Below are positions 2,082 to 22,416 of a stretch of DNA of 33,785 nt, in pieces. A program made the translations under genes and the position numbers. The notes under the pieces are model-generated. The model saw nothing but the letters and a program-made list of their open reading frames with translations, was not told the DNA's origin and ran no database searches. The stretch comes from Marine group II euryarchaeote REDSEA-S11_B3N4 (GTDB lineage: Archaea; Thermoplasmatota; Poseidoniia; Poseidoniales; Thalassarchaeaceae), in NCBI GenBank assembly GCA_001628485.1, contig LURR01000035.1, positions 1 to 33,785 of the forward strand. Reading direction: 5' to 3'. The number at the start of each line of letters is the position of its first letter. The stretch's first letter is position 1.

Positions 2082-4556
2082 ATGGCTGACGCCAAGGGAG
2101 GTAGCGCGGCCAAGGACAAGCAGGCCGCCGAGGCCGCCAAGAAGAAGGCGGAGGCCGAGAAGAAGGCCACTGAGGCCGCCAAGAAGAAGGCGGAGGCCGA
2201 GAAGAAGGCGGCAGCGGACCAGAAGAAGGCGGCGGAGGCAGCCTCGAAGGACAAGGCAGCAGCCGAGAAGAGCCTAGAGGCAGCCAAGAAGGCGAGGAAG
2301 AAGGCCGAGGAAGACCTCCAGAAGGCCAGGACCTCAGCCAGCGACGCGACGAAGAAGATCAGCGCCCTGAAGAAGGAGAAGGCGAGTGCCGACCGGGACC
2401 TCAAAGTCCAGGAATCGGCCAGGAAGAAGGCAGAGTCTGACCTCGCGAGGACGAAGAAGTCCAGTAGCGGGGACGTCAAGAAACTAGAGAACCTGGAGAG
2501 GCAGGTCGAGTCAGCAAAATCCAGGCTGGAGGACTCCAAGAAGGCAGCCTCCGAGGCTAAGAGGCAGCTGGAGAAGGAGAAGGAGAGCGCAGGAAAGAAC
2601 TCCAAGAAGATCGCAGACCTGAACAAGGAGCAGAACAGCCTGCAAAGCGATCTGAAAGCCACTCAATCAGAACTGAAGAAGGCGGAGGCGGAGCTAGCCG
2701 CGGAGTCAAAGAAGGGGGCGTCCGAGAAGGCCAAGCTACAGCAACTGACAGACTCGACCAGGGGCCTGAAGTCCCAGATATCGGACCTCGCCAAGAAGGT
2801 GAAGGAAATCAGGACGAAGACGGAGGACCAGGCCAAGACCCTCAGGGACTTCGAAAGCAGGCTCGCAGAGGAGACCAAGGCGAAGAAGGAGGCCGAGGCG
2901 AAGCTCGAGAAAGCCAGGAAGGCGACGGATGCCGCGGACAGCAAGAGGAAGGCAGCAGAGGCCAAGACCAAGGAGGCCGAGAAGGCCTTCCAATCAACAG
3001 TAAAGCCCAGGAAGGACGCAGAGGACATGGCGAAGAAGGCCGACTCCGACAGGATCAGGGCCGAGAAGGAGCTCGAGAAGAGGATAGCGCTGCAGAAGAA
3101 GGCAGAGGAAGAGGCCAAGAAAGGCGCCGAGGACAGGAAGAGCGCCGAGAAGAGGAAAGCGGACGCCGAGAAGGCGAAGGCCGACGCTGAGAAGGCCAGA
3201 GACAAGAGCATCCAGGAGGCCGACAAGGCGAGGAAGTCCCTTTCAGAGTCCAGGGCCAAGCTGAAGGATATCAGCGAAGACCTGAGGAAGGCAGAGGCGG
3301 AAAGGAAGGCAGCCCAGGAAAAGGCGGCAAGCGCGAAGTCTGAGGCCGACGAGCTGACCAAGAAGGCGGAGAGCAGCAAATCAAGCGCTGAGAGCGCGAA
3401 AAAGAGGCTCAAGGAGGAGAACGCCGCCGGCAAGGAGGCCAAGGCCCAGCACGCCGAGAGCAAGAAGAGAGGCGAGGCCGCCAAGAAGGAGCTCGCAACA
3501 GCAGACGAGGAGCGCAAGAAGGCAGCCGCCAAGATGGAGGAGGTCGTGAAGGCGAAGCAGGCCTACCAGAAGAGGGCCGCCGAGGAGAGGAAGAAGGCCG
3601 AGGAGGTCGAGGGACAGGTATCCCAGAAGAGGAAGCTTACAGCCGACACGAAGAAGAAGTCCGAGTTCGAGGCGAAGGCGAAGGCCGAGGCCGATGCGAA
3701 GGCGAAGGCCGAGGCCGACGGCCACAAGAAGGCGAAGGACGACCTGAAGGCGGAGACCGAGAGGTGGAAGGAGGCCGAGAAGGTGCTCGGGAAGACGACG
3801 AGCGAGCGGAAGAAGGCCCAGGCGGAGTCCAAGAAGGCCAAAGAGGCGAGGGAGTCGACCCACAAGGAGTTCCTGGACGCGAAGCAGAACAGAATCGAGG
3901 CCGAGAACGCGGCCAAGCAAGAGGAGAGGGACCTGAAGGACGCCCAGAGGAGGGCAGAGGCCGAGGCGAGGGCCAGGAAGGACCTAGAGAAGGAGATCGA
4001 GGAGGAGGAGAAGCGAAGGAAGATCGCCAAGGCCAAGAAGAAGGCCCTCGAGAAGAAGAAGCTGACGGCCGAGGAGCTGGCCATGGAGGAGGCCAGGAAG
4101 CGGCAGGAGGCCAAGGACCGGGTCAAGAGGAAGGCCGAGAAGAGGAGGAAGAGGGCCGAGGAGGAGCGCCAGAGGAAGATGCTGGCGGCATCCGAGGCCG
4201 AGCAGCTCGCCGAAGTGAACAGGCTCGAGGTGGAGATGAGGCTCAACGACCTGAAGACCCAGGAGGGCACGATGGCCAAGGAGGACTACATCCTAGCGAG
4301 GATCAACATCAAGGCCATAACCATCGACTTCGAGGTCATCGGGGAGGCCAACGGCCACACCGACGACCTGCAGCAGATCGACGGCATAGACGAGGGCCTT
4401 GAGCGGAGGCTGAACACCCTGGGCATATCCACCCTCTCGCAGATATCGAAGATGGACGACGACATGAGCGACACCGTGAACGACGCGATAGAGTACATGC
4501 CGGGAAGAATCCGAAGGCAGCTCTGGGCAGAGCAGGCCCAGATCCTCCTGGAGTGA
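2082..4556 (+). CDS. Long cytosolic coiled-coil (TolA-like) protein with C-terminal HhH module
   Basis: This is an 824-residue protein with no signal peptide or membrane helix. Residues 1 to about 740 are almost entirely Lys, Ala, Glu, Asp, Arg and Ser in heptad-like or ER/K-helix patterns, such as KKKAEAEKKA. They predict a single long alpha-helix or coiled-coil rod, comparable in composition to TolA domain II. Residues 748-824 form a globular module: a short IDFEVIG lead-in, then LQQIDGIDEGLERRLNTLGI, QIS, and a PGRI..W..QA end. This resembles the helix-hairpin-helix (HhH) domains with a GIG turn that bind DNA or mediate protein contacts. The same module occurs twice at the C-terminus of the giant membrane protein encoded immediately downstream. 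The product is likely an internal scaffold, but its function is unknown. Confidence 0.85.
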   Translation: MADAKGGSAAKDKQAAEAAKKKAEAEKKATEAAKKKAEAEKKAAADQKKAAEAASKDKAAAEKSLEAAKKARKKAEEDLQKARTSASDATKKISALKKEKASADRDLKVQESARKKAESDLARTKKSSSGDVKKLENLERQVESAKSRLEDSKKAASEAKRQLEKEKESAGKNSKKIADLNKEQNSLQSDLKATQSELKKAEAELAAESKKGASEKAKLQQLTDSTRGLKSQISDLAKKVKEIRTKTEDQAKTLRDFESRLAEETKAKKEAEAKLEKARKATDAADSKRKAAEAKTKEAEKAFQSTVKPRKDAEDMAKKADSDRIRAEKELEKRIALQKKAEEEAKKGAEDRKSAEKRKADAEKAKADAEKARDKSIQEADKARKSLSESRAKLKDISEDLRKAEAERKAAQEKAASAKSEADELTKKAESSKSSAESAKKRLKEENAAGKEAKAQHAESKKRGEAAKKELATADEERKKAAAKMEEVVKAKQAYQKRAAEERKKAEEVEGQVSQKRKLTADTKKKSEFEAKAKAEADAKAKAEADGHKKAKDDLKAETERWKEAEKVLGKTTSERKKAQAESKKAKEARESTHKEFLDAKQNRIEAENAAKQEERDLKDAQRRAEAEARARKDLEKEIEEEEKRRKIAKAKKKALEKKKLTAEELAMEEARKRQEAKDRVKRKAEKRRKRAEEERQRKMLAASEAEQLAEVNRLEVEMRLNDLKTQEGTMAKEDYILARINIKAITIDFEVIGEANGHTDDLQQIDGIDEGLERRLNTLGISTLSQISKMDDDMSDTVNDAIEYMPGRIRRQLWAEQAQILLE
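2130..2209 (+). repeat. Two perfect 38-bp direct repeats, 42-bp period
   Basis: The same 38-bp stretch occurs at 2130-2167 and 2172-2209, giving a 14-residue protein repeat (two heptads) at the start of the rod. Identity at third codon positions suggests recent duplication. A similar short duplication encodes repeated AKAKAEAD units near 3675-3720. Confidence 0.75.
4323..4553 (+). other. HhH module at the end of the 824-residue protein
   Basis: Residues 748-824 match the two C-terminal modules of the downstream giant protein. Shared features in order are an I-D-F-x-[VI]-[IL]-G lead, an LQ-[EQ]-I-[DK]-G-I turn, an L-N-x-[LI]-G-I helix start, an S-Q-I or A-Q-I element, and PGRI followed by a W..QA helix. 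In this copy the turn reads GIDEG rather than GIGxF, and the RD of RDEW is replaced by RQLW. Confidence 0.75.
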
Positions 4557-4562
4557 GGAAAT

Positions 4563-4584
4563 AGACACCCCCTAAGGGGTGTCT
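4563..4584 (+). terminator. Perfect 9-bp hairpin between the rod gene and the giant gene
   Basis: AGACACCCC (4563-4571) pairs perfectly with GGGGTGTCT (4576-4584) across a CTAA loop, six nucleotides after the stop of the preceding gene. It may end or stabilise the 3' end of that transcript. The GTG assigned as the start of the giant gene lies inside the right arm, so it either controls translation of that gene or shows that the true start is further downstream. Confidence 0.55.
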
Positions 4585-7500
4585 AAGCCGGAAAAAGAGC
4601 GCATCCCTCGGATAGAATCAAAAGCGGATTTTCCCGATAGTGAAAGCGTGCGAGCGGAAGCGAGGTCACGAGTGCGGGCACTGATGCTGATCCTGCTGAT
4701 GCTGGCCAGCACCCAACTAATTCTACTAACCTCACTTGATTACACAGAGCTGGAGCTCGGGCCGGATTCCAGGAGTTCCTCGATTGACAACACACAGGTC
4801 GCAACAATAGAGGTGGGTCTTGACCACGCTTGCGCGATAGGTACCGCCGGGCAGATGAAGTGCTGGGGGGACGGGACGAACGGCAAGACTGGTCATGAGA
4901 ATACTGACGACTACGGAGACCAAAGTGAGGAGATGGGGCAGTACCTCATGTTCACAGATGGGGGTGATGGCCTAACCTTCGACGATGTTTCTGCAGGTAA
5001 CAGGTTCACTTGCGGCCTAATGAGCGATGCGTCCGTTAAGTGCTGGGGCAGCAACGAATTCCTCGGTTCCAATGCGGGGGTCGCCGGATCGGGATCATTG
5101 GGTGACGGCTACCTAGAGATGGGAGAAGGTTTGCAGAAAGTCAACCTAGGAGATTGGAATGCTACATCCATAGCCGCTGGAGGTTCGCATGCCTGCGCCA
5201 TAGTCAACAACGGATCTGCGGACTCCTTGGCCTGCTGGGGCAACAACGACTTTGGAGAATTAGGGGTCGGGAATACGCACAATGCCTATGGAAATGTGCA
5301 GATAGGACATGTGGACCTACCCGAAAGGGGATCTGACCTTTCTCAAGTCGCCCTAGGAAGTAGGCATTCCTGCCTGCTCTGGAGTGACGGAGAGATTGGC
5401 TGCTGGGGCAGCAACTCGTTCGGTCAGCTCGGCATTGGAAGCACGGAGGACATAGGTGACGAGGCGGGGGAGATGGGTTCCAGTATGACGCTGGTAGACC
5501 TGCCTTCAGATAGGACTGCTACTCAAATCTCCGCTGGACACAACACGACCTGCGCCATCCTCGACAACGGGCGTCTGTCATGCTGGGGTTTCGGCTCCTA
5601 CGGCATGCTCGGTTCAGAGGGTACGAACCATCTGGGAGACTCGGCTGACGAGGTGGGGGAAGATATGCACATCCTCGAACTAGGGGAGTACCCCAACGGA
5701 ACCCCGTTACTTGTCGAAGACATCTCGGTTGGCCACCACCATGCATGCGCGATCACTGACGGCGGAAGCAACGCGAACCAGATGAAGTGCTGGGGCTCGG
5801 GAATCGGAGGCGCTCTGGGTTCGGAGAATCAAGACAACCTTGGAGATGGGCAGTTCGAAATGGGAATTCTTCTCCCATTCCTGGATCTGGGTACCGGCAT
5901 CCAACCCATTTCAGTCGAAGCGGGCGAATCATTCACATGCGCCCTGATGAACACAACCGAGGTCAAGTGCTGGGGCTCCGGCCTGGATGGAAGGACTGGC
6001 CAGGGAGTCAGCGGACAGCTCGGTGACCTCCCCGGAGACATGGGGGACAATCTGCCATTCGTCGAACTGTACCTGCCCGAGGAAACCTTCGACCAGCCTT
6101 GCGACCTGCCAGCAGAGGGATCTCCACTGTCCATCTCAACCGTCGATTCTTCCACGCCCCGAACCGGGAACAAAACCGCCACGGCCCTTACTCCCGAGTC
6201 CTGCGGGGCGATCGCTTACTTTGACGAGAGCGACAATTTGCTCAAGTTCGGGATTTTCACCAAAGGAAGATGGGCCACGGAGGTCGTTAGGGACTACGAC
6301 TCCATCTGGAATAACCTTCACGACGTTTCAATCACGATCGGCAGCGATGGGGTGCCTCACATCGTCTCATCCGGGAGCTTGAACACAAATAGCGGTCAAG
6401 CGCACTACTACACCAAGAAGGACGGGGGGTGGACAGGCGCAAATCAGTATGCCTCTACGTCGGGAGTTGGCGACGCGGGAATCTTCGCAGTGGGCTTGGA
6501 GATTGACGGTTCCGGTGACATCTACGCCATCGCGCAGAAATCCTACACGACGGCTTGGGGATCGCACTCGGTCATAGACGCCTACAGATGCACGGCTGTG
6601 GGGCATGCCAACAACAGCTGCACAGACAGGTGGGACGGTGGATTCGATCTCAACAACAATTACATTGGCAGAATTTCCGAGGCATCCTGGTCCGCCTCAT
6701 TGGACACGGATGTGGACTCTGACGGCACTGTTTACGTCGCCTACCTAGGGGATGCGGACTCTTTTGGGGAGGAGTCAGGGAGCGTAGAGGTCGTGGAGCT
6801 CGACTCAACTGGGTTCGGCACGCCGATGGATGTGGGTGGCACGTTAAGCAGAACCACCGCCAACTCTTCGCTTTCCATGGACCTGGGTCCAGATGGCTCT
6901 TTTCACCTCGCTTACCCCAATCATGGCGGGGGATTGAACTACTCTATCTGCTCATCAAGCTGCGACCTGCCGGCATCCTGGTCGACAGAGTACGTCAACC
7001 AGTCGGTTGCCGTGTCCGACACTGGCGTGATTGACATCTCGGTCGGGCCTGACATGTCGGTTGTAATTCTGGCTGGAGCGTCGGAGGGCACATCCGCCCT
7101 CCACAAGACCGATGGAAGCTGGGAGAAGACCGAGCTAGAGACATCTGGAGGGGCGGACTGGACCGGGGTAGAAATCACCGACCAGGGGATGATGTGGGCC
7201 TACGCGTACTTCCCGAACACTGGTTCTACACTCAGCCTGTACAAGCAGGAGGGAATGACATCGCCCGGGCTGGGATCGGATATCGACGGGGACGGCTGGT
7301 CGAGGCTTGAAGAGCTCCGCTGCGGGACCGACTACACCAACTCGTCCTCGACCCCGGCGGATGCCGACGGGGACGGAGTCTGCGACCTATTCGACGACTG
7401 GGAGGACACCTCCGTCTCGGCCGAGTCCGATGCCCTGGCGATAGGCGAGGAGTTCGGGTGCGCTGTGCTCTCGAACCGATCCGTTGCATGCTGGGGCGAC

Positions 7501-10500
7501 AACTCCGAGGGGCAGCTGGGCAGCCCCTCTGCGGGATCGAGCAGCGCCTACGCGGTCATGGTCGACCTGCCGGCCGGATTCGAGGCCGGAGCAGTGGATG
7601 CGGGGTCCGCCCACGCCTGCTCGACCGGTCTGGATGGGAAGCTGGTATGCTGGGGCAGGAACACCGACGGGCAGCTGGGCCGTGGGAACTCTTCACCAAG
7701 CGAGTCCCCGGGCTACGTGAACCTTCCCTCCGGTGTGACCGTCTCGCAGTTCGCTGCTGGCGCGGACCACAACTGCATGACGGGCACGGACTCGAACATG
7801 TACTGCTGGGGGAACGGGAGCGACGACAGGACGGGCAAGATAGTCAACAGCGACAACACCGTCATCCAGTACGAGAACTTCACCGACGACTCGAGGTCGT
7901 GGACGAGCACTTCCCCGACTTACCTGCTGGGCCCGGGACAGGGCACCGATTACATAGACAAGGTGTATTACAGCTGGTGGCTCTACCCCCAGATATACTC
8001 CGACCAGTCCTTCGACGTAACGGCTGGTGACGTCATCTCATTCAAGATGAGAGGGAGGAATCACGGGGACAACGGTTACACCAGCGAGGTGGTGAAGTTC
8101 TACGCCGGTAGCAGCCTGTTGGCGCAAATAGACTCCAACACGACCACACAATACTCTTACTGGTCGGGATGGCAGGACGTCTCGTTCACCGTGCCCGACT
8201 CGTATACGGGAACGGGTGCGACCTCGATCAAGATTGAGATCTGGGGTTACAGGAACTACGTCCAAATTGACGATCTGCGAGTAAAGAATCTCGCATATGG
8301 CTCCATTGGATCGGTGCTAGAGCCCAGCATGGTGCGTTGGGACGAGTCTGGGGGGGTAAACCAGATATCACTGGGAGCCCGTCACTCCTGCGCACTGATG
8401 TCCTCCGGGAGCGTGAATTGCTGGGGATACAACGGCGGCAGCTACGCGAACATACTCGGCAGCCCCTCCTACAAGGGCGAGAGCACGTACGATCCCAAGG
8501 AGGTCGACCTCTCGGGGACTAGCAGCCTGGCCGCCTCGAACTGGACCAGCAGCACCGTGGAAGGGATAAACGCAGGAGATGGGGTGACTTGCGCGATCAT
8601 GAGGAGCACCGAGGCGCTCTGCTGGGGGTCATCCACCCAGACGACCTACGCAGACCCGGTCGTCAGCACCATTGCCAGCACGGGTGACGTGGGCAGGAGC
8701 CCCGCCCTGACCACCGACGGCAGCGGAAACTGGCTACTGGCCTACAACGACGCAGGCGGCATCTCGTACGCGAGGTACGACGGCTCGACCTGGAGCACAT
8801 ACTCCGCATGCGCCTCATCGGACGCCTGCGACTCCACGCACGGAGTGGGTGTCGGGGAGGACTCCCTAGGGGACTTGCACTTTCTCAGCTACAACGAGGC
8901 AGGGGAGCAGCTCATGCACACGAGAACCCCGAGGAACATCACCACCACGGCCGCGGTGACCGGAGAAGAATCCAGATTCTTCAGCATCTCCAGGGACCCC
9001 TCGACCGAGGACCTGCACCTGACCTACCAGCAGATGAGCGGTAGGAAGCTGATGCACACCATCTTCAATGGAACCAGTTGGTCTACGCCTACTGTGATCG
9101 ACGATACCGATGACAGGACCGGTGAGTCCTACAATGGCATGAAGATAGACTCGTCGGGGAACCTGCACCTCTCCTACTGGGACTGGAACACGGGCGGCAC
9201 CGACGATACGTGGCTAAAGTATGCCTACTACAACGGGACGTCCTGGTCCGTCGAGACGCTTCAGTCGATCATGGACCAGAACAACCCAACGCTGCACACC
9301 TCCCTGGACATAGACAGCAGCGGCAACCCCCACATCTCATACTACGACCACAAGAACGACACCCTTCGCTACACCTACCACAACGGCACAGCCTGGGTGG
9401 ACCAGACCCTGACGCTCGACGACTCCAACGACAACGGGAGGTTCAACTCGATAGCGCTGGACAGCAGCGACCACCCCCGGATAGCCTACAGGAACGAGAC
9501 CTCCGACGACCTTGAGCTCGCCACGTGGGACGGCACAGAGTGGACCAGGGAGGTGGTCGACAGCCTAAACAACGTCGGGAGCTGGGCATCGATAGCGATC
9601 GACAGCAGCGACCTGAGCAGGATAGCCTACTACTACGACTATCACTCCGACCTCAGATACGCCTCCCACGACGGGTCGGCATGGTCATTCGAGGACATCG
9701 ACACCAGCGTGAAGACCTCCAGGATAGTGCTCGACCTAGACGACAGCGACCGACCGAGAATCGCCTACAAGGACTGGGACAACGAGCCCTGGCTCGCATA
9801 CAACAACAGCGGGACCGAGGGCACGTGGGAGACCGTCCAAGTCAGGAACGGGTACGACCTTGGGGGGCACATGGCCATGACGCTGGACTACTCGACTGGC
9901 ACCGCCTACATGGCGTACCGCCAGTACCAGTGGCCGGCGTACGCCGGGCTGGTCTCCAGCGTCTACACCGGGACAGTCCTCGCCACAGACCCTGTGTCCG
10001 ACAGCGGTGAGGCCGCAAACTCCGTTGGCATGGGGCCAGAGATACACATCGCCGGCACCACCGTGTTGGCCCCGTTCATGAACGGCACGGACGGCGAATC
10101 ACCGGCTTACGTGGAGATGGCCACGATAAGGGCCCCTGGTCCGACGATCACGAGCGTGGACGGCGAGTCCCACTACGTCGGAACCTACGGCATATCAATG
10201 GCCCTAGACCAGGCAGGGAACCAGCACATCTCCTACTACAACGCAAGCGCGTCAAGCCTGATGTACGCTCGGTTCGACGGCTCCTCATGGCAAGTCGAGG
10301 AGGTGGACAACGGGGGTGCCTCAGGGACCTACTCCTCGATAGCGATAGACCCCTCAGGAAACCCCCACATCTCCTACGTGAACACCACCCCTAATCCCGA
10401 TGCTGTGATGTACGCGCACCACAATGGCACCGCATGGACGATCGAAGTCATCGACGCGACCCCCTACTACGCCTATGACACGTCGATAGACCTGGATTCC

Positions 10501-16500: not shown

Positions 16501-19500
16501 GGGGAGTACTACAGCATTCTGGAGATCGACAATCGGGGCCTGCCAGTCCTCTTCCTCGGTCAGAGGGACAACTACCAAGCCAATCACCACAGGATAATCA
16601 GGCTCGACTCGAACCTGAACCCTGAGTTCGAGGAGTTCATCACATACGCCAACAACCCTGCCAACAGCTTCCTACTGGACTGGGAGGACGTCGCCTTCGA
16701 CCCCCTCGGGAACATGCTGGTGAACTTCTACTCTAACCAATGCTCCCTCTACTGGAACGGGAGCTACATGGGCAGGCCATCTACCTATTGCAATTACAAC
16801 AGCCAGTTCTTCATGGAGGCCGTGGGGCACACCATCGGCGGCTCGTCCCTGGTGGCGGGAGAGCCCAGCACCCTCTGGGGCGTCATGGGCCTGAGCGCGA
16901 TGGGCGCGACCTGCAGCCAGGGCACCAGCTACTGCGACGAGTACCTCGACTCGTGGGCATCGTCGTCCCTGCCGGGGGGCCTCAGCATCGACTCGGACAC
17001 CGGGATGATCTCGGGCGAGGCGGCCTCCAACATGTCAGAGTCTTCATTCACGCTCTGGATGAACGACACCGTACTGGGGAGCAACCAGCTGAACGTGTCC
17101 TTCTCCATACTCAACGGCAGGCCGACGGTATCCTACAACGAGACGTCCTTCGTCCTGGAGCGGGGCACAGAGATAGAGCCCATATCGCCCTACGAGGTCG
17201 AGGGCAACATCCTCAATTGGACCTTCGTCCCAGACCTGCCGCCAGGTCTGCAACTCGGAGCCAGCAACGGGACGGTATGGGGGACTCCGACGGTGAACCT
17301 GACGCAGCAGACGTTCCAGCTCCGAGTGACGAGCGACGGGGGGACGACAAGAGTGAACTTCGACTTCACGATCAACGAGCCGATCGCCAACATCTCGTAC
17401 GGCAACGGGACGTACATCATACCGAGGGACGCCTTGGTGGACATCGCCCCGACCATCGTCGGCGGGGCCGTCGCCAGCTTCGCCATCAACTCGACCTCCT
17501 TCCCGCTCGGGCTGACCTTCAACACCACGAACGGACACTTCGAGGGAATCCCCCTCCTAGTCACGAACCAGACGACCTACACAGTCACTGCGAGCAACTC
17601 CGGAGGAACATCAAGCACGGAGGTGACCCTCTGGATAGTGGGGAACGGGATCTTCCTGAGCTTCCCTACCAGCGACCTGATGCTGACCGAGGGAGTGGCC
17701 ATGCAGCCCATCGCGGGGCAGACCTCCGGCTCGACGCCCGAGAGCTGGGAAATCTCCCCGGGCCTGCCAGACGGGTTGCTCTTCGGTGATGAGAACGGCA
17801 CTGTCTGGGGGACTCCAGAAAACGTACAGAACCAGACCAACTACACCATATGGGCGAATGCATCGGGAGCGCAGACAAGCTCGGTAGTCATCACCATAAC
17901 CGTGCTCGTGGATACGGACGGCGACTCCATAGCGGACCTATACGACGATGACGATGACGATGACGGTTGGAACGACACGGCGGAGTTGGATTGCGGCACG
18001 GAGCCCCTGAACTCAACGAGCACCCCCGCCGACACGGACAGCGACGGGATTTGCGATACCCTGGATGACTCTGACGATAGAGCGATAGCACTCGCATACT
18101 CCGTCAACAGCCTCGACCTAGTGGTCAACATCTCGGTGGTTGACCTAGCCCCCATCACATCCGGAGGCACCATCTCGTCATGGGAGGCAGGCTCCGGCCT
18201 GCCATCCGGGATCAACTTAGACAACAGCACGGGAGTGATATCGGGAACTCCCACGGAGGTCTTCAACTCGACATCCTACGTCATATGGGCCAACAACACC
18301 GCATTCTCGGCGTCTTTCAGCCTGAACATCTCCTCGTCCCTACTCGACACCGATGGGGATGGAATCCCAGATGAGACAGACACTGATGACGACAACGACG
18401 GCTGGGATGACGCCAACGAGACTGCCTGTTCCACGGATCCACTTGAGGAGGACGACTACCCAGAGGACGGGGACGGGGACGGTATCTGCGATGCAAACGA
18501 CCCAGCGGACGATTCCCCAGTCCTCCTAGCATACCCAGACCCTCTGCTCAACCTGACGACCAACATGTCAATCGTCCAAATCCATCCGATAGTCTTCGGC
18601 GGGGACGTAGTCTCATGGGAAGTGTCTCCAGACCTGCCTCCAGGACTCGTACTCGACAACTCCACCGGATATCTATCCGGCACCCCCAGCATCGAATTCG
18701 AACTCACTAACTACACAATCTGGGCTAACAACAGCCTGCATGGATCCCATTTCACAATAGGGATATCCTCGTGGTTGCTTGACTCCGATGGGGATGGGGA
18801 TCCCGATGAGACCGATCCTGACGATGACAACGACGGCTGGGGGGATGAGGAAGAGGGAGACTGTCTGACAAGTACTCTGGATCCCACTTCGTTCCCAGAG
18901 GACGGGGACGGAGACGGCCTGTGCGACGGTCTGGACCAGGTGGACGACTCCGAGATATTCCTCGTCTACAGCATGACATCCCAACTTCTCTTCGTCAATG
19001 AGCCGATAGAGCCGATCGTCGGCACCACCTACGGCGGAGACGTGCGCACCTGGGAGGTCTGGCCAGAGTTGCCAGAGGGCCTCACCCTCAATGGTGCACT
19101 TTCGAGAACAACGCCAGTGAACGGGACCATCTCGGGAGCACCGATGGGGGAGTTCGAGATGCAAGTCTTCACAGTATGGGCCAACAACTCGCAATACCAC
19201 AGCTCTGTGGAGATAACCCTCCAATCGGTCTTGCCCGACCCCGACGATGACGACATCGACCTGATTTACCTGGACGATTTCCTCAACCTAACCACCAATG
19301 TGGATGAGGTGTACTTGGAGCCCCAGATTTTCGGAGGCAACGTTACGTCTTGGTCCATCTCCCCGTCCGCACCCGACGGACTGGACTTCAACAACACCAA
19401 TGGCCTGCTGACAGGGACGATAGCAGTCGAGCAGAACGAGACCGTCTACACAATCACTGGGAGCAACTCACTGTTCTTGGATACCTTCCAAATCACGATA

Positions 19501-22416
19501 GTGGCCAGATACCTCGACACCGATGAGGACGGCTTGCCTGACCTGTTCGACCCGGATGACGACGGGGACGGTTGGAACGACACGTTCGAGATAGCCTGCG
19601 GAACAGACCCCCTGTACATCGTCGAGAGTCCCGAGGATCACGACGAGGACTGGATATGCGACCCACTGGACGAGTTCGACGACTCCCCGATCGTCTTCTT
19701 CTACCCCAATGACAAGCTTACGCTCACCGTTGGGGAGGAGATGGAACCACTGGAGCCACTAATCGCCCCTAACAGCGGAGGAATACTCCTGTTCACTGTG
19801 ATTCCCGACCTACCTAAGGGACTGCTCCTGGACAACAGCACGGGAGTCATCTCGGGGACTCCCGAGGAGGCCTTCAGACACATGCTGATCGAGTACTCGC
19901 ACCGATTCACGGCCCATAACTCACAGTGGGACTTCTCCTACAGGGTGGACTTCGACGTATTCTGGCCAGAGGACAACACCACCGACGAGGACGGTGATGG
20001 CTGGCCGGACCTTATCGAGCTAGAATGCAACACCGATCCTACCGACCCCTCCTCTTTCCCGGAGGACATAGACCTCGATGGGGTTTGCAGCTACATCGAT
20101 GAGGACGACGATGGGGACAACATAGGGGACCCGATCGACAGGTTCCCGAAGGACCCCACGGCATGGGATGACACCGACAACGACACCATGCCTGACGAGT
20201 TGACCTGCAAGTACCTCACGGACTCAGCCAACTGCACATTCGAGCTGGTAGAAGACCTGGACGACGACAACGACGGTTGGCTCGACCTCAACGAGACCAG
20301 TTGCGGGACGAATCCGAAGGACAACCTGTCAGTCCCTGAAGACGACGATGGGGATGGGGTCTGCAACCTCTTGGAGGTGTACGTCCCAGATGCAGTCAGG
20401 ATTCTCTGGATTTGCTGCTTCCCAATCCTCCTGCTGCTGCTCCTGCTCCTATGGGTAATCAACCCCTTCACCGTCAGGGAAGAGGAGATACTGGGCCCAG
20501 AGCCAGAGTACACGACCACAGAGTTCGGATGGCAAGGAGGGACGGGCGAGTATGACGACCCGTACGTCCTAATGCCCGTTAAGGGAATAAGGAAGGGCTC
20601 TTTTGCCAGGAGCCACGAGATCATCCAGGTTTCCAACATAACGCCAAGGCTCGATTGCGACTTCACCGATATGTCATCCGAGGAGAACGGCACTAGGTTC
20701 AGCATGAAATCGAAGAAGGCCAACTCGAGAGGCAATCTGGAGTTCAGGCTGGAGTTCAGCGACAACGGAGAAACCACGGAGACCACCGAATACGTCGGGC
20801 TCATCAGACTAGGTAAGGCCACGGTATACTTCCAGTGGGCGGTAGAGGTGGAGGTGTATCGGGACACGCCAGAAGAGGAGATCGCCAAGAAGAGGGCTAG
20901 GAGAATCGAGAGAGAGGCCAAGAGGAGGGCCTCCGAGATGGAGAAGGAGGTCGAGGAGAGGGTCGCAAAGGCCGAGATCGATGCAAAGAAGAAGGCAGCG
21001 GAGATGCAGAAGGACCTGAAGGCCAAGGTCGCGGAGGTCGAGAAGGAGGCCCAGGAGAGGGCCGCAGCGGCCGAGGAGGCTGCCAAGAAGGCCGAGGAAG
21101 CCCAAAAGGAGGCTGAGAGGAAGCAAGCCGAAGCAGAGAGCGAGGCCCGTAGAAAAGACAGTGAGCGCCTGGAAAGGGAAGCACGTGAGAAGAGGCTCGA
21201 GGAAGAAGAAAGGGCCCGCATAGAGGCCGAGGAGGCTGCAGAGGAGGAGCGCAAGGCGGAGGAAGAGGCCGCAGAGCTAAGGGCGATGCTCAGAAAGAAG
21301 GCAGAACAAAGGAAGGCTGAGGAAGAGGAGCGCAAGGCGGAGGAAGAGGCTGCCAAGAGGGCTGCAGAGGAAGAAGCGGCGAGAATCGAGAGGGAGGCCC
21401 AGGAGAAGGCCGAGCAGCTACAGAGGGAGGCCCAGGAGAGGGCCGCCATGGTCGAGAGGGAAGCAGCAAGGAAAGCTGCTGAAGTCGAGCGTGAGGCTGA
21501 GATAAAGGCCATGGAGGCCAAAGAGAAGCTGAGGAAGAGGGCGATAGAGAGGAAGCGTCAGATGGACCTGGAGGAAAAGGAGAACCAGGTCGCTCGGGAC
21601 AAGGCTGCGGAGAGGTTCAGTGCCATGGAAAAGGAGCTCGAGGACAGGAGGTCAAAGATCGAAGAGTTGGATGCCGAGGCCATGAAGAAGGAAAAGGCCC
21701 TAATCAGGGTTGCAGAGAAGTCCAAGGACATCGACTTCGGAATACTAGGATTCGCAACCGCAGACCAGAAGGACCCACTCCAGGAAATCAAGGGGATTGG
21801 TCCGTTTATCGAAGAGAAGTTAAACGCACTTGGCATCTACACATTCGCACAGATTTCCAGAATGAACTCAGACCTGGAGGATAAGATAAACGAGGCGATA
21901 GAGTTCTTCCCAGGTAGGATAAAGAGGGACGAATGGGCAAAGCAGGCAAGATCCATGGTGGACAAAGAAGACACGGGTGACGTCCCCTCTGAGGATCCTG
22001 ATAGTGCAGACATTTCTCAGAATGAGCTTATCGAGAAGGCTAGGGGGGAAGTCAGGAGAAAGGAGGAAGAGGAAGAGAAGAGGAGGGAGATCGAAAGGAG
22101 GAAGAAGAGGGCAGCAGAACTCCTTAGCAGGGTCACCTCCGAGAGGGTGATCGAGAGGGAGGAAGAGGATGATGCTGGGATCGATTTCACAGTAATCGGA
22201 TTCGGATCGGAGGAAGACCGGGACAACCTCCAGCAGATAGACGGAATTGGGAGATTCGTAGAGAAGAAATTGAATGGCATCGGGATATACAAGATTTCCC
22301 AAATAGCAAGTATGACACAGGAAATCTCTGAAGAGGTAAACCAGGCAATAGGCCTAGGTCCGGGCAGGATAGACAGGGACGAGTGGGTCCTTCAAGCAAA
22401 GAGATTGATACGATAA
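4579..22416 (+). CDS. Giant multidomain surface protein with cytosolic coiled coil and two HhH modules
   Basis: This is one uninterrupted frame of 5945 codons. In order it contains: basic N-region and hydrophobic helix (about 35-55); RCC1 repeats (74-497); propeller repeats (541-888); a calcium spacer (901-944); RCC1 repeats with a jelly-roll-like insert (951-1354; insert 1097-1244); about 20 propeller repeats (1358-2391); RCC1 repeats (2418-2993); a calcium spacer (to about 3111); more propeller-like sequence (3121-3494); an Ig-like domain (3511-3598); SBBP-like repeats (3608-4084); and an Ig/calcium stalk (4095-5271). A membrane helix (5275-5297) follows, then a cytosolic beta domain (about 5308-5431), a coiled coil (5434-5714) and HhH modules (5718-5794, 5868-5945). 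Export is predicted for the first 5200 or so residues. The start is uncertain: GTG 4579 sits in a hairpin, and GTG 4648 or ATG 4684 also give a good signal sequence. Adhesion or ligand capture is likely, but the ligand is unknown. Confidence 0.9.
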   Translation: MSKPEKERIPRIESKADFPDSESVRAEARSRVRALMLILLMLASTQLILLTSLDYTELELGPDSRSSSIDNTQVATIEVGLDHACAIGTAGQMKCWGDGTNGKTGHENTDDYGDQSEEMGQYLMFTDGGDGLTFDDVSAGNRFTCGLMSDASVKCWGSNEFLGSNAGVAGSGSLGDGYLEMGEGLQKVNLGDWNATSIAAGGSHACAIVNNGSADSLACWGNNDFGELGVGNTHNAYGNVQIGHVDLPERGSDLSQVALGSRHSCLLWSDGEIGCWGSNSFGQLGIGSTEDIGDEAGEMGSSMTLVDLPSDRTATQISAGHNTTCAILDNGRLSCWGFGSYGMLGSEGTNHLGDSADEVGEDMHILELGEYPNGTPLLVEDISVGHHHACAITDGGSNANQMKCWGSGIGGALGSENQDNLGDGQFEMGILLPFLDLGTGIQPISVEAGESFTCALMNTTEVKCWGSGLDGRTGQGVSGQLGDLPGDMGDNLPFVELYLPEETFDQPCDLPAEGSPLSISTVDSSTPRTGNKTATALTPESCGAIAYFDESDNLLKFGIFTKGRWATEVVRDYDSIWNNLHDVSITIGSDGVPHIVSSGSLNTNSGQAHYYTKKDGGWTGANQYASTSGVGDAGIFAVGLEIDGSGDIYAIAQKSYTTAWGSHSVIDAYRCTAVGHANNSCTDRWDGGFDLNNNYIGRISEASWSASLDTDVDSDGTVYVAYLGDADSFGEESGSVEVVELDSTGFGTPMDVGGTLSRTTANSSLSMDLGPDGSFHLAYPNHGGGLNYSICSSSCDLPASWSTEYVNQSVAVSDTGVIDISVGPDMSVVILAGASEGTSALHKTDGSWEKTELETSGGADWTGVEITDQGMMWAYAYFPNTGSTLSLYKQEGMTSPGLGSDIDGDGWSRLEELRCGTDYTNSSSTPADADGDGVCDLFDDWEDTSVSAESDALAIGEEFGCAVLSNRSVACWGDNSEGQLGSPSAGSSSAYAVMVDLPAGFEAGAVDAGSAHACSTGLDGKLVCWGRNTDGQLGRGNSSPSESPGYVNLPSGVTVSQFAAGADHNCMTGTDSNMYCWGNGSDDRTGKIVNSDNTVIQYENFTDDSRSWTSTSPTYLLGPGQGTDYIDKVYYSWWLYPQIYSDQSFDVTAGDVISFKMRGRNHGDNGYTSEVVKFYAGSSLLAQIDSNTTTQYSYWSGWQDVSFTVPDSYTGTGATSIKIEIWGYRNYVQIDDLRVKNLAYGSIGSVLEPSMVRWDESGGVNQISLGARHSCALMSSGSVNCWGYNGGSYANILGSPSYKGESTYDPKEVDLSGTSSLAASNWTSSTVEGINAGDGVTCAIMRSTEALCWGSSTQTTYADPVVSTIASTGDVGRSPALTTDGSGNWLLAYNDAGGISYARYDGSTWSTYSACASSDACDSTHGVGVGEDSLGDLHFLSYNEAGEQLMHTRTPRNITTTAAVTGEESRFFSISRDPSTEDLHLTYQQMSGRKLMHTIFNGTSWSTPTVIDDTDDRTGESYNGMKIDSSGNLHLSYWDWNTGGTDDTWLKYAYYNGTSWSVETLQSIMDQNNPTLHTSLDIDSSGNPHISYYDHKNDTLRYTYHNGTAWVDQTLTLDDSNDNGRFNSIALDSSDHPRIAYRNETSDDLELATWDGTEWTREVVDSLNNVGSWASIAIDSSDLSRIAYYYDYHSDLRYASHDGSAWSFEDIDTSVKTSRIVLDLDDSDRPRIAYKDWDNEPWLAYNNSGTEGTWETVQVRNGYDLGGHMAMTLDYSTGTAYMAYRQYQWPAYAGLVSSVYTGTVLATDPVSDSGEAANSVGMGPEIHIAGTTVLAPFMNGTDGESPAYVEMATIRAPGPTITSVDGESHYVGTYGISMALDQAGNQHISYYNASASSLMYARFDGSSWQVEEVDNGGASGTYSSIAIDPSGNPHISYVNTTPNPDAVMYAHHNGTAWTIEVIDATPYYAYDTSIDLDSSGSAHITYQVYNNSCGTCYNLRYSYHNGSEWVYEDIKDYSSNWAYSNTGRNNQIKLNSTDVPHVVFFDDYYDDVYLSVRVNGSWSSSSVDDYGGIYTIYGERAISLAIDSTDGLHVAYYDLGGRFLEYAHRGPGESSWTKTNVHDQGNHYIGTSVSIALDSADRPHIAYHDRTHWDLEYARFDGSEWLVETLDEYGNSGRYPSIALDGNDQVHIAYENSSSTRLMSIVIADGLAATEKVAQVGTHGYGMGFVVGASGGMHLSFYNGSDSSGSLQYATKSGSTWNSVTVDDGSTMVGTHSDIALDGSDNPHISYVDSTNGLLRYAYHNGESWALSTVDPSGSVLGRTSIAVDADGNPRIAYHDGTLRLAEWDGVSWTLTTQDPGSTGQGTQIAVDANGKTRIAYFDEDNDDLSFSLAGHQSPAVMGNSQSHPTGSAMGSGASGLASLDLGETHGCAVSSSSVICWGVATDGQLGNGASALTSRDPVSVTTVTGWTPLEVSVSTSSGIGGGTSCALYSSDSTGERRVMCWGGGGSGQIGDGGTSSLSSPASTDLVMLDSTTPLGASDGSETLSSSPYDVVEVSLSEIGKFGCARSSQGHVKCWGYNAYGQLGHGNTSTASDGENEMGEDLAFVPLGANRTATRISVGENHACGLLDDGSVKCWGRNNYGQLGMGNTTQIGDGPNEMGDFLAAVDLGTSRTATEIATGQHHSCALLDDGSVKCWGLNSYGQLGIGNTSTRGDGANEMGDDLVAVDLGTGRTAISIEAGATFTCAILDSGVLKCWGQNSFGQLGQGHNENIGHGPDLDGNGISCHPAVNSPDNTRECNARLGDGLAAVDLGDGRTAVSVSAGYSSTCAILDNGSVRCWGHNQYGRTGLGTTPGNTGDEDGEMGDNLATVELGTGRTASSISVGYSHACALLDNLSIACWGHNGQGQIGIGTNNDVDTTAEMGAGLVTADLPTTRSSSVSSGWYYSCAIIQDGTVRCWGENSDGRLGVYDGVDDDIGDESGEMGSEMQITNLYMVPPDFDGDGWIDLWDSDDDNDGYLDTEDDLPFDERDWFDHDGDGLGINVDTDDDDPSVKTAEEDTAEKWSDAEEEACGTLWWSSLSEPSDYDGDGICDEVDDDVDGNGWNDSYQCECSGLEDSDDWNRESLFGYNTGLTSFSSDQGQYGYDFELSEHGVRYYSSYYNDAAYVWLQRHDSSTYGAQSFGAWDDFNYWGIESQNGFTYLAYQEGVWRFSDTNGSVAASGTGMSHSQTTSSDIAISMDGDMVVRWHESDSGGTIRGAYLNGTTFQANAPGGLAPPDTGGNNQHGQIAFGPDGRLHVLMVNNSSGVIGFYHFYADLGSDLSGDVSLSWSTPELLLERNQSTGWSSGASHSATEDHSAELHYSSDGKMYAGMYNTTDLWLSTHDGSSWTTELVAESTGKNEGVEIATNSTGVVHVAWINHSSGQLVLSHKSSGSWSHEEVWLSDGWPTSTSTQTLNWARLTLKFDRLDDPYILSLDANDSSSASALLHYKGSLLDPSYTYQPADANGDGVCDTLQYAVMEYDTTELIVTSGESVSMIPTFSGQELVEVWAPSLPDGLSVNNTTGVISGAPTTVDTAGTAYVIYSNSSSASYPFTITFTVRTHAPMHAGYGSWQDHKYLSTSNGRGYTLHEYDASGNLYYYGIYQTSSAWTADGLSVSIGNGDHYVAKRWANGTWAWVVPIDTSYGGSPGALSVDGSGNSYVAGMRANGALDLPGTDHDLPSREAAYFFSLDTNGSTRWSQDAYIDGSSSANWHVSTSASIGNYGSTRMSYNESNGELTVAGQVSTSSISERTVSLGNLTMEIPITNYNYYRPFVIRINSTGEFSWATTVTPSSTYHRSLQGMGVHADGSVDILMQTHGETQLGDLTAGNESRHYLGARVNDTGSWVAATEITELAMDVGTGFRSGYDSAMMEITPSGELIVAIWSIDDISNLSVNGTSTLFNETCQDSLVMVSLSGSEWNVEASREFCLAAQGSRYGEYYSILEIDNRGLPVLFLGQRDNYQANHHRIIRLDSNLNPEFEEFITYANNPANSFLLDWEDVAFDPLGNMLVNFYSNQCSLYWNGSYMGRPSTYCNYNSQFFMEAVGHTIGGSSLVAGEPSTLWGVMGLSAMGATCSQGTSYCDEYLDSWASSSLPGGLSIDSDTGMISGEAASNMSESSFTLWMNDTVLGSNQLNVSFSILNGRPTVSYNETSFVLERGTEIEPISPYEVEGNILNWTFVPDLPPGLQLGASNGTVWGTPTVNLTQQTFQLRVTSDGGTTRVNFDFTINEPIANISYGNGTYIIPRDALVDIAPTIVGGAVASFAINSTSFPLGLTFNTTNGHFEGIPLLVTNQTTYTVTASNSGGTSSTEVTLWIVGNGIFLSFPTSDLMLTEGVAMQPIAGQTSGSTPESWEISPGLPDGLLFGDENGTVWGTPENVQNQTNYTIWANASGAQTSSVVITITVLVDTDGDSIADLYDDDDDDDGWNDTAELDCGTEPLNSTSTPADTDSDGICDTLDDSDDRAIALAYSVNSLDLVVNISVVDLAPITSGGTISSWEAGSGLPSGINLDNSTGVISGTPTEVFNSTSYVIWANNTAFSASFSLNISSSLLDTDGDGIPDETDTDDDNDGWDDANETACSTDPLEEDDYPEDGDGDGICDANDPADDSPVLLAYPDPLLNLTTNMSIVQIHPIVFGGDVVSWEVSPDLPPGLVLDNSTGYLSGTPSIEFELTNYTIWANNSLHGSHFTIGISSWLLDSDGDGDPDETDPDDDNDGWGDEEEGDCLTSTLDPTSFPEDGDGDGLCDGLDQVDDSEIFLVYSMTSQLLFVNEPIEPIVGTTYGGDVRTWEVWPELPEGLTLNGALSRTTPVNGTISGAPMGEFEMQVFTVWANNSQYHSSVEITLQSVLPDPDDDDIDLIYLDDFLNLTTNVDEVYLEPQIFGGNVTSWSISPSAPDGLDFNNTNGLLTGTIAVEQNETVYTITGSNSLFLDTFQITIVARYLDTDEDGLPDLFDPDDDGDGWNDTFEIACGTDPLYIVESPEDHDEDWICDPLDEFDDSPIVFFYPNDKLTLTVGEEMEPLEPLIAPNSGGILLFTVIPDLPKGLLLDNSTGVISGTPEEAFRHMLIEYSHRFTAHNSQWDFSYRVDFDVFWPEDNTTDEDGDGWPDLIELECNTDPTDPSSFPEDIDLDGVCSYIDEDDDGDNIGDPIDRFPKDPTAWDDTDNDTMPDELTCKYLTDSANCTFELVEDLDDDNDGWLDLNETSCGTNPKDNLSVPEDDDGDGVCNLLEVYVPDAVRILWICCFPILLLLLLLLWVINPFTVREEEILGPEPEYTTTEFGWQGGTGEYDDPYVLMPVKGIRKGSFARSHEIIQVSNITPRLDCDFTDMSSEENGTRFSMKSKKANSRGNLEFRLEFSDNGETTETTEYVGLIRLGKATVYFQWAVEVEVYRDTPEEEIAKKRARRIEREAKRRASEMEKEVEERVAKAEIDAKKKAAEMQKDLKAKVAEVEKEAQERAAAAEEAAKKAEEAQKEAERKQAEAESEARRKDSERLEREAREKRLEEEERARIEAEEAAEEERKAEEEAAELRAMLRKKAEQRKAEEEERKAEEEAAKRAAEEEAARIEREAQEKAEQLQREAQERAAMVEREAARKAAEVEREAEIKAMEAKEKLRKRAIERKRQMDLEEKENQVARDKAAERFSAMEKELEDRRSKIEELDAEAMKKEKALIRVAEKSKDIDFGILGFATADQKDPLQEIKGIGPFIEEKLNALGIYTFAQISRMNSDLEDKINEAIEFFPGRIKRDEWAKQARSMVDKEDTGDVPSEDPDSADISQNELIEKARGEVRRKEEEEEKRREIERRKKRAAELLSRVTSERVIEREEEDDAGIDFTVIGFGSEEDRDNLQQIDGIGRFVEKKLNGIGIYKISQIASMTQEISEEVNQAIGLGPGRIDRDEWVLQAKRLIR
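4798..6070 (+). repeat. RCC1 repeat block 1 (seven units)
   Basis: There are seven units of about 60 residues, each with an S-x-G-x-x-H/F-[ST]-C-A-[LI] element, then a Cys-Trp-Gly nine or more residues later, then a G-x-[LT]-G turn. Seven units suit one closed seven-bladed propeller. Each unit carries a cysteine pair, usually C-x9-C-W-G, as expected for a disulfide in an exported protein. Units at 4861 and 5041, and at 5401 and 5581, are exactly 180 bp apart. Confidence 0.8.
7430..8640 (+). repeat. RCC1 repeat block 2 (five units) with inserted beta domain
   Basis: Five C-x9-C-W-G units are visible (Cys-Trp-Gly near 7490, 7650, 7800, 8420 and 8620). Between the third and fourth lies a roughly 148-residue insert (about 7868-8310). 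It is rich in Tyr, Trp, Ser and Thr, with a DVTAGDVISFKMRG strand and an IKIEIWGYRNY strand ending in QIDDLRV. This pattern resembles jelly-roll carbohydrate-binding modules. That assignment is tentative. Confidence 0.65.
8650..11750 (+). repeat. Long beta-propeller repeat array (about 20 units)
   Basis: I count about 20 copies of a unit centred on a [SD]-I-A-[ILV]-D-[SG]-[SD]-[GD]-x-P-[HR]-I-[SA]-Y-x-[DN] motif. Each is followed by L-x-Y-A-x-x-[DN]-G-[ST]-x-W. Unit length is about 45-55 residues. The pattern fits BNR/NHL-like four-strand propeller blades, enough for about three propellers. A related but more diverged array occupies about 6200-7240. Confidence 0.7.
11820..13560 (+). repeat. 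RCC1 repeat block 3 (nine units)
   Basis: Nine Cys-pair RCC1 units are visible. Four consecutive Cys-Trp-Gly sites fall at 12301, 12481, 12661 and 12841, spaced exactly 180 bp. Two neighbouring units share a perfect DDGSVKCWG-coding stretch (about 12461-12485 and 12641-12665), which points to recent duplication or gene conversion. One unit near 12890-13000 carries an insert with two additional cysteines. Confidence 0.8.
16860..20390 (+). repeat. Membrane-proximal stalk of Ig-like and calcium-binding modules
   Basis: About nine putative Ig (He_PIG-like) domains each end in a P-x-G-L-x-[LF]-x-[NS]-x-[TN]-G-x-[IVL]-x-G-[TIA] signature. From about 17915 onward most are separated by acidic spacers of the D-x-D-G-D-G-x-x-D type with a paired Cys, as in thrombospondin type 3 repeats. 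The last spacers run into the membrane helix. Calcium would be expected to stiffen such a stalk. Confidence 0.75.
20401..20470 (+). other. C-terminal transmembrane helix of the giant protein
   Basis: Residues 5275-5297 form a hydrophobic run with ICC near its start and eight consecutive leucines, followed by VREEE. It divides the acidic, calcium-binding outer part from the charged cytosolic tail, which contains no further membrane segment. Confidence 0.85.
21730..22413 (+). repeat. Two HhH modules at the cytosolic end of the giant protein
   Basis: Module 1 (21730-21960) reads IDFGILGF, then LQEIKGIGPFIEEKLNALGI, AQIS and PGRIKRDEW. Module 2 (22180-22413) reads IDFTVIGF, then LQQIDGIGRFVEKKLNGIGI, SQIA and PGRIDRDEW. 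They are clearly homologous to each other and to residues 748-824 of the upstream 824-residue protein. A charged linker of about 70 residues separates them. The GIG turns are typical of helix-hairpin-helix folds. Confidence 0.8.

Follow-up and report, generated by a model that had tools for sequence, protein, structure and literature searches.

In helix-hairpin-helix (HhH) motifs, the backbone of the hairpin glycine contacts phosphate. The best-studied relative of the module analysed here is the phasin PhaH of Caulobacter crescentus (Salinas et al. 2023, as cited in PMC13052382), which is reported to bind granules by its N-terminal end; the review's passage on PhaH credits its HhH domain with non-specific DNA binding that tethers polyhydroxybutyrate (PHB) granules to the nucleoid. 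By sequence, the same C-terminal module is carried by alphaproteobacterial NuoE, by extensions of the ribosomal proteins S2 and L21, by protein-O of the RC-LH1 complex (8yy9) and by the '41 kd' subunit of complex I (9wqv). In the protein-O structure only residues 8-59 are traced, leaving the C-terminal domain unseen, and its authors point out the same domain on NuoE and other proteins and term its function obscure. Here we describe two neighbouring genes that end in this module, encoding a soluble rod protein and a giant surface protein, in a marine Poseidoniales (Marine Group II, MGII) archaeon. The window is the whole 33.8-kb contig (LURR01000035.1; C29 in our genome set) of a genome of 1.30 Mb that is 92% complete.

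In ocean surface waters, Poseidoniales have been described as the most abundant archaea of the plankton, without cultured members, and their widespread thrombospondin genes have been linked to adhesion (PMC6461757). Like the MGII giant adhesins and thrombospondin-repeat surface proteins described there, the giant of the window has a large repeat-rich outer part; the available sections of that paper mention neither a cytosolic HhH tail, nor a rod partner, nor a pairing with an MscS channel gene. The channel gene of the window has both Pfam domains of the MscS small-conductance channels and differs from those by its pairing with a giant surface protein gene. By analogy, the giant would work like PhaH, with one end on a large body and the other docking inside the cell. 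It differs in being a membrane-spanning surface protein and not a phasin, and a search at E<=0.1 gave no match between the PhaH model and the rod. New in the present analysis are the repeated pairing of giant and MscS genes, the split of the module into two classes and the kinship of the module to the C-terminal domain of PhaH. No report of an MscS-giant or a rod-giant pairing was found in the open-licence papers searched.

Architecture and gene order of the locus

On the + strand, the window reads DEAD-box helicase, rod (2082-4556), giant (to 22416), MscS channel (22450-23787), topoisomerase IB and GTP cyclohydrolase II. The locus is real, conserved and odd. In what follows, g1 denotes the genus of the window, g11 a second rod-bearing genus, and f1, f2 and f3 families of the same class; modules of related genomes are non-independent in all counts.

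The rod gene (2082..4556, + strand) encodes an 824-aa soluble protein with no predicted transmembrane (TM) segment, in which a Lys/Ala/Glu coiled coil of ~730 residues with exact 7/3.5 periodicity leads into a single HhH module (residues 748-824; 4323..4553, + strand). Spectral power, computed on hydrophobic/Ala positions at period 3.5, is 34 in the window rod, where about 1 is expected. It reaches 34-46 over ~730 residues in seven g1 rods and 12-14 in two g11 rods, being strong in 9/9 measured, and with this sustained heptad periodicity the rod is a coiled coil. The coil is basic, at +5.3 to +9.0 net charge per 100 aa in the rods measured (+6.1 to +9.0 in g1). A structure prediction of the C-terminal part (pLDDT 89.9) shows a single helix followed by the helical module, and Foldseek gave no match to this end at E<=0.001 in a search dominated by the long helix.

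The longest frame of the giant gene opens at GTG 4579 (5945 aa). That codon falls inside the 3' arm of a hairpin between the two genes, and in two related genomes (G008 and G016) stops close the corresponding frame and the open frame begins at 'MRAQAR'; the start is therefore probably GTG 4648, which would give a gene at 4648..22416 (+ strand) and a protein of 5922 aa with an ordinary-looking signal peptide. In the numbering of the 5945-aa frame, this signal-peptide-like N terminus (4648..4743) peaks in hydropathy at residues 31-55, and the start is conserved. The predicted outer part (4744..20376) contains RCC1 repeats and He_PIG domains above Pfam cut-offs and TSP3-like repeats below cut-off. 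It is followed by one strong TM segment near the C-terminal end (~residue 5270; 20377..20475), a juxtamembrane beta domain on the cytosolic side (20476..20865), a charged Glu/Lys/Arg/Ala helix of ~290 residues (20869..21729) and two HhH modules (residues 5718-5794, 21730..21960, hairpin IKGIGP; residues 5868-5945, 22180..22413, hairpin IDGIGR), all on the + strand.

Composition agrees with an outer and an inner part divided at this TM segment, as the original prediction had it. N-x-S/T sequons number 106 in the outer part against 55.1+-6.7 in shuffles, with 2 in the tail; Cys falls from 81 outside to 1 in the tail, and Lys rises from 1.1% to 9.6%. These contrasts and the position of the TM segment support an outer domain and an inner cytosolic tail on a single predicted membrane protein. 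A model of the tail (mean pLDDT 77.9, pTM 0.34) shows the beta domain, charged helix, module, linker helix and module in succession. The beta domain is weakly Ig/PapD-like, its best fold matches being Ig and PapD-like domains (best E 5.4e-3); the fold search with the tail returned nothing at E<=0.001, and the domain had no PDB sequence match.

A coiled coil had also been proposed ahead of the giant's first module. It holds for the rod; in the giant's helix heptads went undetected, with a power at period 3.5 of 0.8-2.1 in nine g1 tails. In the window this helix is periodic with peaks at 5.34, 3.64 and 3.8 residues (powers 11.2, 9.9 and 9.2) and not in heptads, so that a non-heptad coil is conceivable. 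The proposed rod length of ~110 nm is arithmetically right for ~740 residues drawn out as one helix, and would apply if the rod were a single unbroken coil. The giant helix is mildly acidic in nine g1 tails (-0.7 to -4.7 per 100 aa), more acidic in two g11 tails, where it spans just 65-69 residues, and basic in four f2 tails. The f2 values confine the opposite charge of rod coil and giant helix to the rod-bearing genera measured.

The original prediction called for a consistent adjacency of a soluble coiled-coil gene and a membrane-anchored giant gene, and this is what we find. All recognised rods were fetched (n=18; 11 from g1, the window included, and 7 from g11), and in 18/18 the N-terminal region of a giant lies downstream on the same strand. 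The two genes follow directly in 11/11 g1 cases; in g11 they are direct in one and separated by ~1.5-1.6 kb in six, and in the two such gaps read a small membrane-protein-like ORF stands between them. A 19th rod, in a further g1 genome (G370), is likewise followed by the giant. The arrangement thus recurs in g1 and g11 and is not a peculiarity of one contig. Rod and giant also share one contig in isolate AG-457-A01 (G013), whose record bears no metagenome-assembled genome tag; such AG names usually denote single-cell genomes. An apparent non-adjacency in g11 was dropped, the module gene at G062:C1 belonging to another giant, and the g11 rod being followed by a giant N-terminal region. Nor is G016 a counter-example. 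The C end of its giant lies on the opposite strand of the rod's contig, where the rod precedes giant N-terminal and middle segments; that C end and the MscS gene with it extend to the contig edge and past it. The arrangement is possibly an assembly fold-back.

The hairpin mentioned above is a perfect 10-bp inverted repeat (4562..4585) that separates rod and giant, and the stretch has a folding energy of -20.5 kcal/mol. A version of this repeat occurs in 8/8 g1 junctions read, with varying loops and a slight change in G007; neither of the two g11 junctions read showed it. Its core pattern was found in 11/28 g1 genomes, once in each, the other 17 including many incomplete ones; where found, it lies just 3' of the rod in 9/11 by coordinates and in G370 by tblastn, G371 being the remaining one. 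The hairpin may set the rod:giant ratio or serve as a protein site. It was rejected as a simple terminator, which a consensus scan did not report.

The MscS-type mechanosensitive channel gene (22450..23787, + strand) begins 33 bp behind the giant. Pfam MS_channel_2nd and MS_channel_3rd are above cut-off, with the beta and C-terminal domains at 67.2 bits (cut-off 20.2) and 50.6 bits (cut-off 21); NCBIfam MscS is below cut-off. On g1 and g11 contigs that reach far enough, an MscS gene follows the C end of the giant. We counted as adjacent an MscS gene on the same strand that starts <=700 nt behind a module or ends <=2.6 kb before the estimated start of a module ORF. Under this definition, 29/49 MscS genes of f1 adjoin a module ORF (21 behind the module, 8 before the ORF), as do 19/78 of f2 (16 behind, 3 before). 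The counts cover 49/65 MscS rows of f1 and 78/90 of f2, the 16 and 12 lowest-scoring rows (remote or fragmentary) being left out, and 105 and 84 module rows, leaving out second copies per ORF and weak partial hits.

The neighbourhoods of these pairs vary. Across the 20 loci read, topoisomerase IB and GTP cyclohydrolase (GCH2) follow MscS only in G017 (g1), and some loci end soon after MscS. A TraB-family gene lies near the pair in G069, and in G184 the giant is flanked by MscS on either side, one of which also has a 229-aa ORF. The loci with MscS beside module-bearing giants include L208 and L215; in the latter (G059, L215:594-6278) KaiC-like, T2SSE and T2SSF genes precede the pair in an archaellum-like order. 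Because the surroundings differ, inherited synteny of one block does not explain the pairing. Passive synteny as its only reason was rejected on this ground, incompletely, since some loci end early.

Kinship and classes of the HhH module

The three module copies of the window, each of ~77 residues, were predicted with exact coordinates and are fully borne out. Aligned globally, the three pairs share 37, 37 and 36 identical residues, and pair scores lie 16-20 s.d. above 2000 shuffles. Their label as HhH folds rests on NCBIfam and PDB sequence relatives, the latter being the complex I '41 kd' subunit and protein-O. In Pfam, HHH_5 and Cdd1 match the giant's modules below curated cut-offs and the rod module has no match at E<=0.1. 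The NCBIfam matches of the giant's end are NuoE (PRK12373, 1e-30), S2 (PRK12311, 5e-26), L21 (PRK12278, 6e-21) and the C-terminal part of PhaH (NF045508, 2e-15), and those of the rod are S2 (8e-9), NuoE (2e-7) and L21 (6e-6). The giant's matches are below whole-protein cut-offs, as is expected for a shared domain; the PhaH model scores 57.4 bits against a cut-off of 250, so the giant is not a PhaH as a whole protein. Judged by sequence, the giant's end and the rod both belong to the C-terminal HhH module of the PhaH/NuoE type. In several giants (tails L090, L092, L095 and L099) a ~50-residue insertion stands between the N-terminal IDF..LG motif and the remainder of the module.

Within this kinship, two classes can be told apart at the hairpin. 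From 201 distinct module sequences those with X were dropped; of the 195 used, 167 have Gly at the hairpin position, 26 have Asp and 2 have Thr. A partial match at a contig edge in G132 is left outside the classes. The G-class, with Gly, comprises giants, archaeal L21e, a complex I subunit and bacterial homologues. The D-class, in which Asp replaces this Gly in 26/26, comprises rods and their kin; its carriers are soluble coil proteins and their hydrolase fusion, with a TM kinase of G016 as the sole exception. Further positions follow the split: Lys21 is present in 142/167 G-class modules vs 7/26 of the D-class, Pro25 in 154/167 vs 1/26, and Asp67 in 164/167 vs 0/26. Arg63 (167 G, 25 D) and Trp69 (165 G, 26 D) are kept in both. 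In a tree of 77 columns and 74 rows (all 26 D, both T and 46 sampled from the 167 G), the 26 D rows all lie on one side of a single branch (support 96/85), which with 77 columns allows a single origin of the D-class and does not prove it.

The window spans this divide. Both modules of its giant have an intact G-h-G hairpin (GIG), and the module of its rod, with GID, lacks it. With the hairpin Gly kept in the giant and lost in the rod, the giant module is a fair and the rod module a poor candidate for DNA binding by the hairpin. The rod, in the diverged D-class and without a PhaH match, would then not have the same function at its end as the giant. The prediction that both proteins end in the same module holds as to kinship, and the difference in class speaks against its reading of the pair.

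Carriers of the module in archaea and bacteria

The genome of the window holds six module copies in four ORFs at E<=0.1: the rod, the giant, a coil protein of 519 aa and a UPF0227 hydrolase-like protein of 571 aa, the last bearing two modules. The genes of the last two lie ~7 kb apart (L007:14448-16007 and L007:5638-7353), and a pair of similar frame sizes shares one contig in several relatives. At E<=0.001, the module is present in 54/118 f1 genomes (G041 by a weak match only) and 60/96 f2 genomes. Across the phylum it was found in 28/194 genomes, 25 of them in f1, f2 or f3 and 3 weak.

A scan of named genomes with the G-class alignment gave 355 relatives, mostly from Candidatus Poseidoniales and Marine Group III archaea; the 80 best of these were retained and sorted by eye on N termini and TM segments. 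One-TM giants or giant fragments make up 42 of these 80 loci, and a complex I subunit at the NuoI position 19. Archaeal ribosomal protein L21e fused to a G-class module accounts for 6 (one checked, Pfam E 4e-31), a multi-TM protein with EF-hands and a SAP domain following the module for 6 (two checked), a HEAT protein for 6 (one checked) and a small TM protein for 1. The SAP domain is a DNA-binding motif. A candidate identification of the multi-TM carrier as a heme-copper oxidase was dropped, Pfam and NCBIfam giving no such match. One complex I example (L105:6882-8249) sits in an operon that reads Oxidored_q6, 30-kDa, 49-kDa, NADHdh, module protein, Proton_antipo. The L21e fusions include L093:5098-5772, L124-L128 and L174; the bacterial L21, a differently named family, bears the same module in NCBIfam. 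The TM protein of G016 (L046:4026-6398) has TSP3 repeats outside and a D-class module with a Ser/Thr kinase domain inside.

Alphaproteobacterial and archaeal lineages both have the module on complex I and the ribosome. The hosts differ, bacterial L21 being named otherwise than archaeal L21e and NuoE standing against the archaeal NuoI position, and among the material examined neither giant nor rod accompanies the alphaproteobacterial module. In Sinorhizobium meliloti a gene ending in the module sits between nuoF and nuoG, and all seven plasmid records found with it are from Sinorhizobium, Rhizobium, Shinella or Methylobacterium. The tagging of ribosome and complex I in two unrelated lineages is the most suggestive general pattern. 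Loci with bacterial titles (L115, L143, L182 and L184; Rhodobiaceae and Flavobacteria MAGs) encode the same module proteins as archaeal loci; these MGII-type loci are probably binning errors or contamination of public bins. No match was found in the phage collection, and PHROG searches at E<=0.001 returned none for the rod and none for the giant's tail; a viral origin of the locus was rejected on these results.

Possible roles of rod, giant and channel

There are several possible explanations for this gene arrangement. We tentatively prefer a cell-surface anchoring locus, in which the cytosolic tail of the giant docks internally, most probably at the nucleoid. The giant would be exported to serve as adhesin or receptor outside the membrane, and would send one TM segment, the Ig-like domain and the charged helix into the cytosol, where its two PhaH-type G-class modules would attach it to a partner inside the cell, with nucleoid DNA or nucleoprotein the most probable one. 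The D-class module of the rod, its hairpin glycine lost, would probably dock to protein rather than DNA, making the rod an accessory that spaces or cross-links at those sites. The MscS channel would act in the same setting, for example at attached or tensed membrane. We infer the DNA binding by analogy with PhaH, the rod-giant contact from gene adjacency, and with them a mechanical role. The anchoring reading is favoured by the rod-giant adjacency, the giant-MscS pairing in differing surroundings, and the PhaH match together with the reported DNA binding of PhaH, as well as by the hairpin Gly and mostly kept Lys21 of the G-class, the SAP domain on another membrane carrier, the topology contrasts and the rod heptads.

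Several observations weigh against such an anchor. The G-class has a mean net charge of -2.6 (range -9 to +5), unusual for a DNA binder, and the D-class one of -6.7; the module also matches NusA domains weakly (E 0.0016), which also hints at protein binding, NusA domains being protein-binding. In two genomes (G004 and G011) the hairpin of the second giant module has Thr. No module ORF adjoins 20/49 MscS genes in f1 and 59/78 in f2, and the pairing is absent from both loci read in a further genus, g12 (L219 and L224). In G017 the giant keeps TM segment, beta domain and helix and ends without any module, <50 nt before the MscS frame (L223:5005-8097), while rod and MscS still adjoin its two ends; either the modules are dispensable or the assembly is wrong. 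The module is, moreover, a general tag on unrelated proteins across the clade. The original prediction named ubiquity on unrelated proteins as evidence against itself, and this has largely come true with L21e, the complex I subunit, the multi-TM EF-hand/SAP protein, the HEAT protein and the TM kinase.

The breadth of carriers gives substance to a different explanation, in which the module is a general protein-docking tag, homotypic or for a common adaptor, that gathers large assemblies, for example ribosomes, complex I and surface proteins, at one cytosolic scaffold without touching DNA, the rod being the scaffold or part of it. We regard this as a realistic possibility. Membrane proteins and parts of big assemblies make up most of the carriers (L21e, a complex I subunit, giants, multi-TM proteins), the alphaproteobacterial hosts from NuoE, S2, L21 and protein-O to the gene between nuoF and nuoG run parallel, and the acidic charge and NusA matches fit protein docking. 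Against it, the hairpin glycine is retained throughout the G-class, and Lys21 and Pro25 in most of its modules. The DNA binding reported for the HhH domain of PhaH (PMC13052382) likewise speaks against a tag for protein only.

Shared regulation could also hold the genes together. Rod, giant and MscS might form an operon of common control or envelope-stress physiology without any linkage, the modules being left over from a common ancestor and now having separate roles. The different classes of the rod and giant modules, with all D rows on one side of one branch, would suit this explanation, as would the junction hairpin, which hints at separate expression levels, and the retention of gene order in G017 around a giant without modules. 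We nevertheless consider it unlikely, as an adjacency of two paralogous ends kept in two genera and a recurrent MscS pairing in differing surroundings favour a functional tie. Alternatively, the rod may be a filament-forming cytoskeletal protein, with the giant's tail merely binding along it and the modules as end caps. The strong heptads of the seven g1 rods and the opposite charge of rod coil and giant helix in g1 are what a filament would lead one to expect. This explanation seems highly improbable given the weaker heptads of the g11 rods, the short helices of the two g11 giant tails, the basic f2 tails and the empty Foldseek search with the rod end.

Extending the anchoring reading by analogy, giants could be mechanically coupled to the chromosome, with G-class tails gripping DNA, the rod spacing or cross-linking the tails and MscS reading tension; the tag on L21e and complex I would then be a general nucleoid-tethering tag of marine archaea and alphaproteobacteria. 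We think this quite unlikely. The interpretation of the original prediction, a transmembrane linkage from an adhesive outer domain to an internal scaffold or the nucleoid, is overall partly supported. Its comparison with animal adhesion-to-cytoskeleton links is an analogy only. In animal links of the integrin-talin type an outer adhesive part is joined across the membrane to an inner rod, and the general layout of the window locus is alike; Pfam and NCBIfam scans gave no homology, and none was sought beyond them.

If the anchoring reading is true, the locus would be a gene-level candidate for an archaeal outside-to-inside linkage tied to a mechanosensitive channel, and an obscure module would gain a testable role that surface proteins, complex I and the ribosome have in common across two unrelated lineages. 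Even without a linkage, the split into G- and D-classes and the L21e and complex I fusions permit clean experiments on the binding partner of the module.

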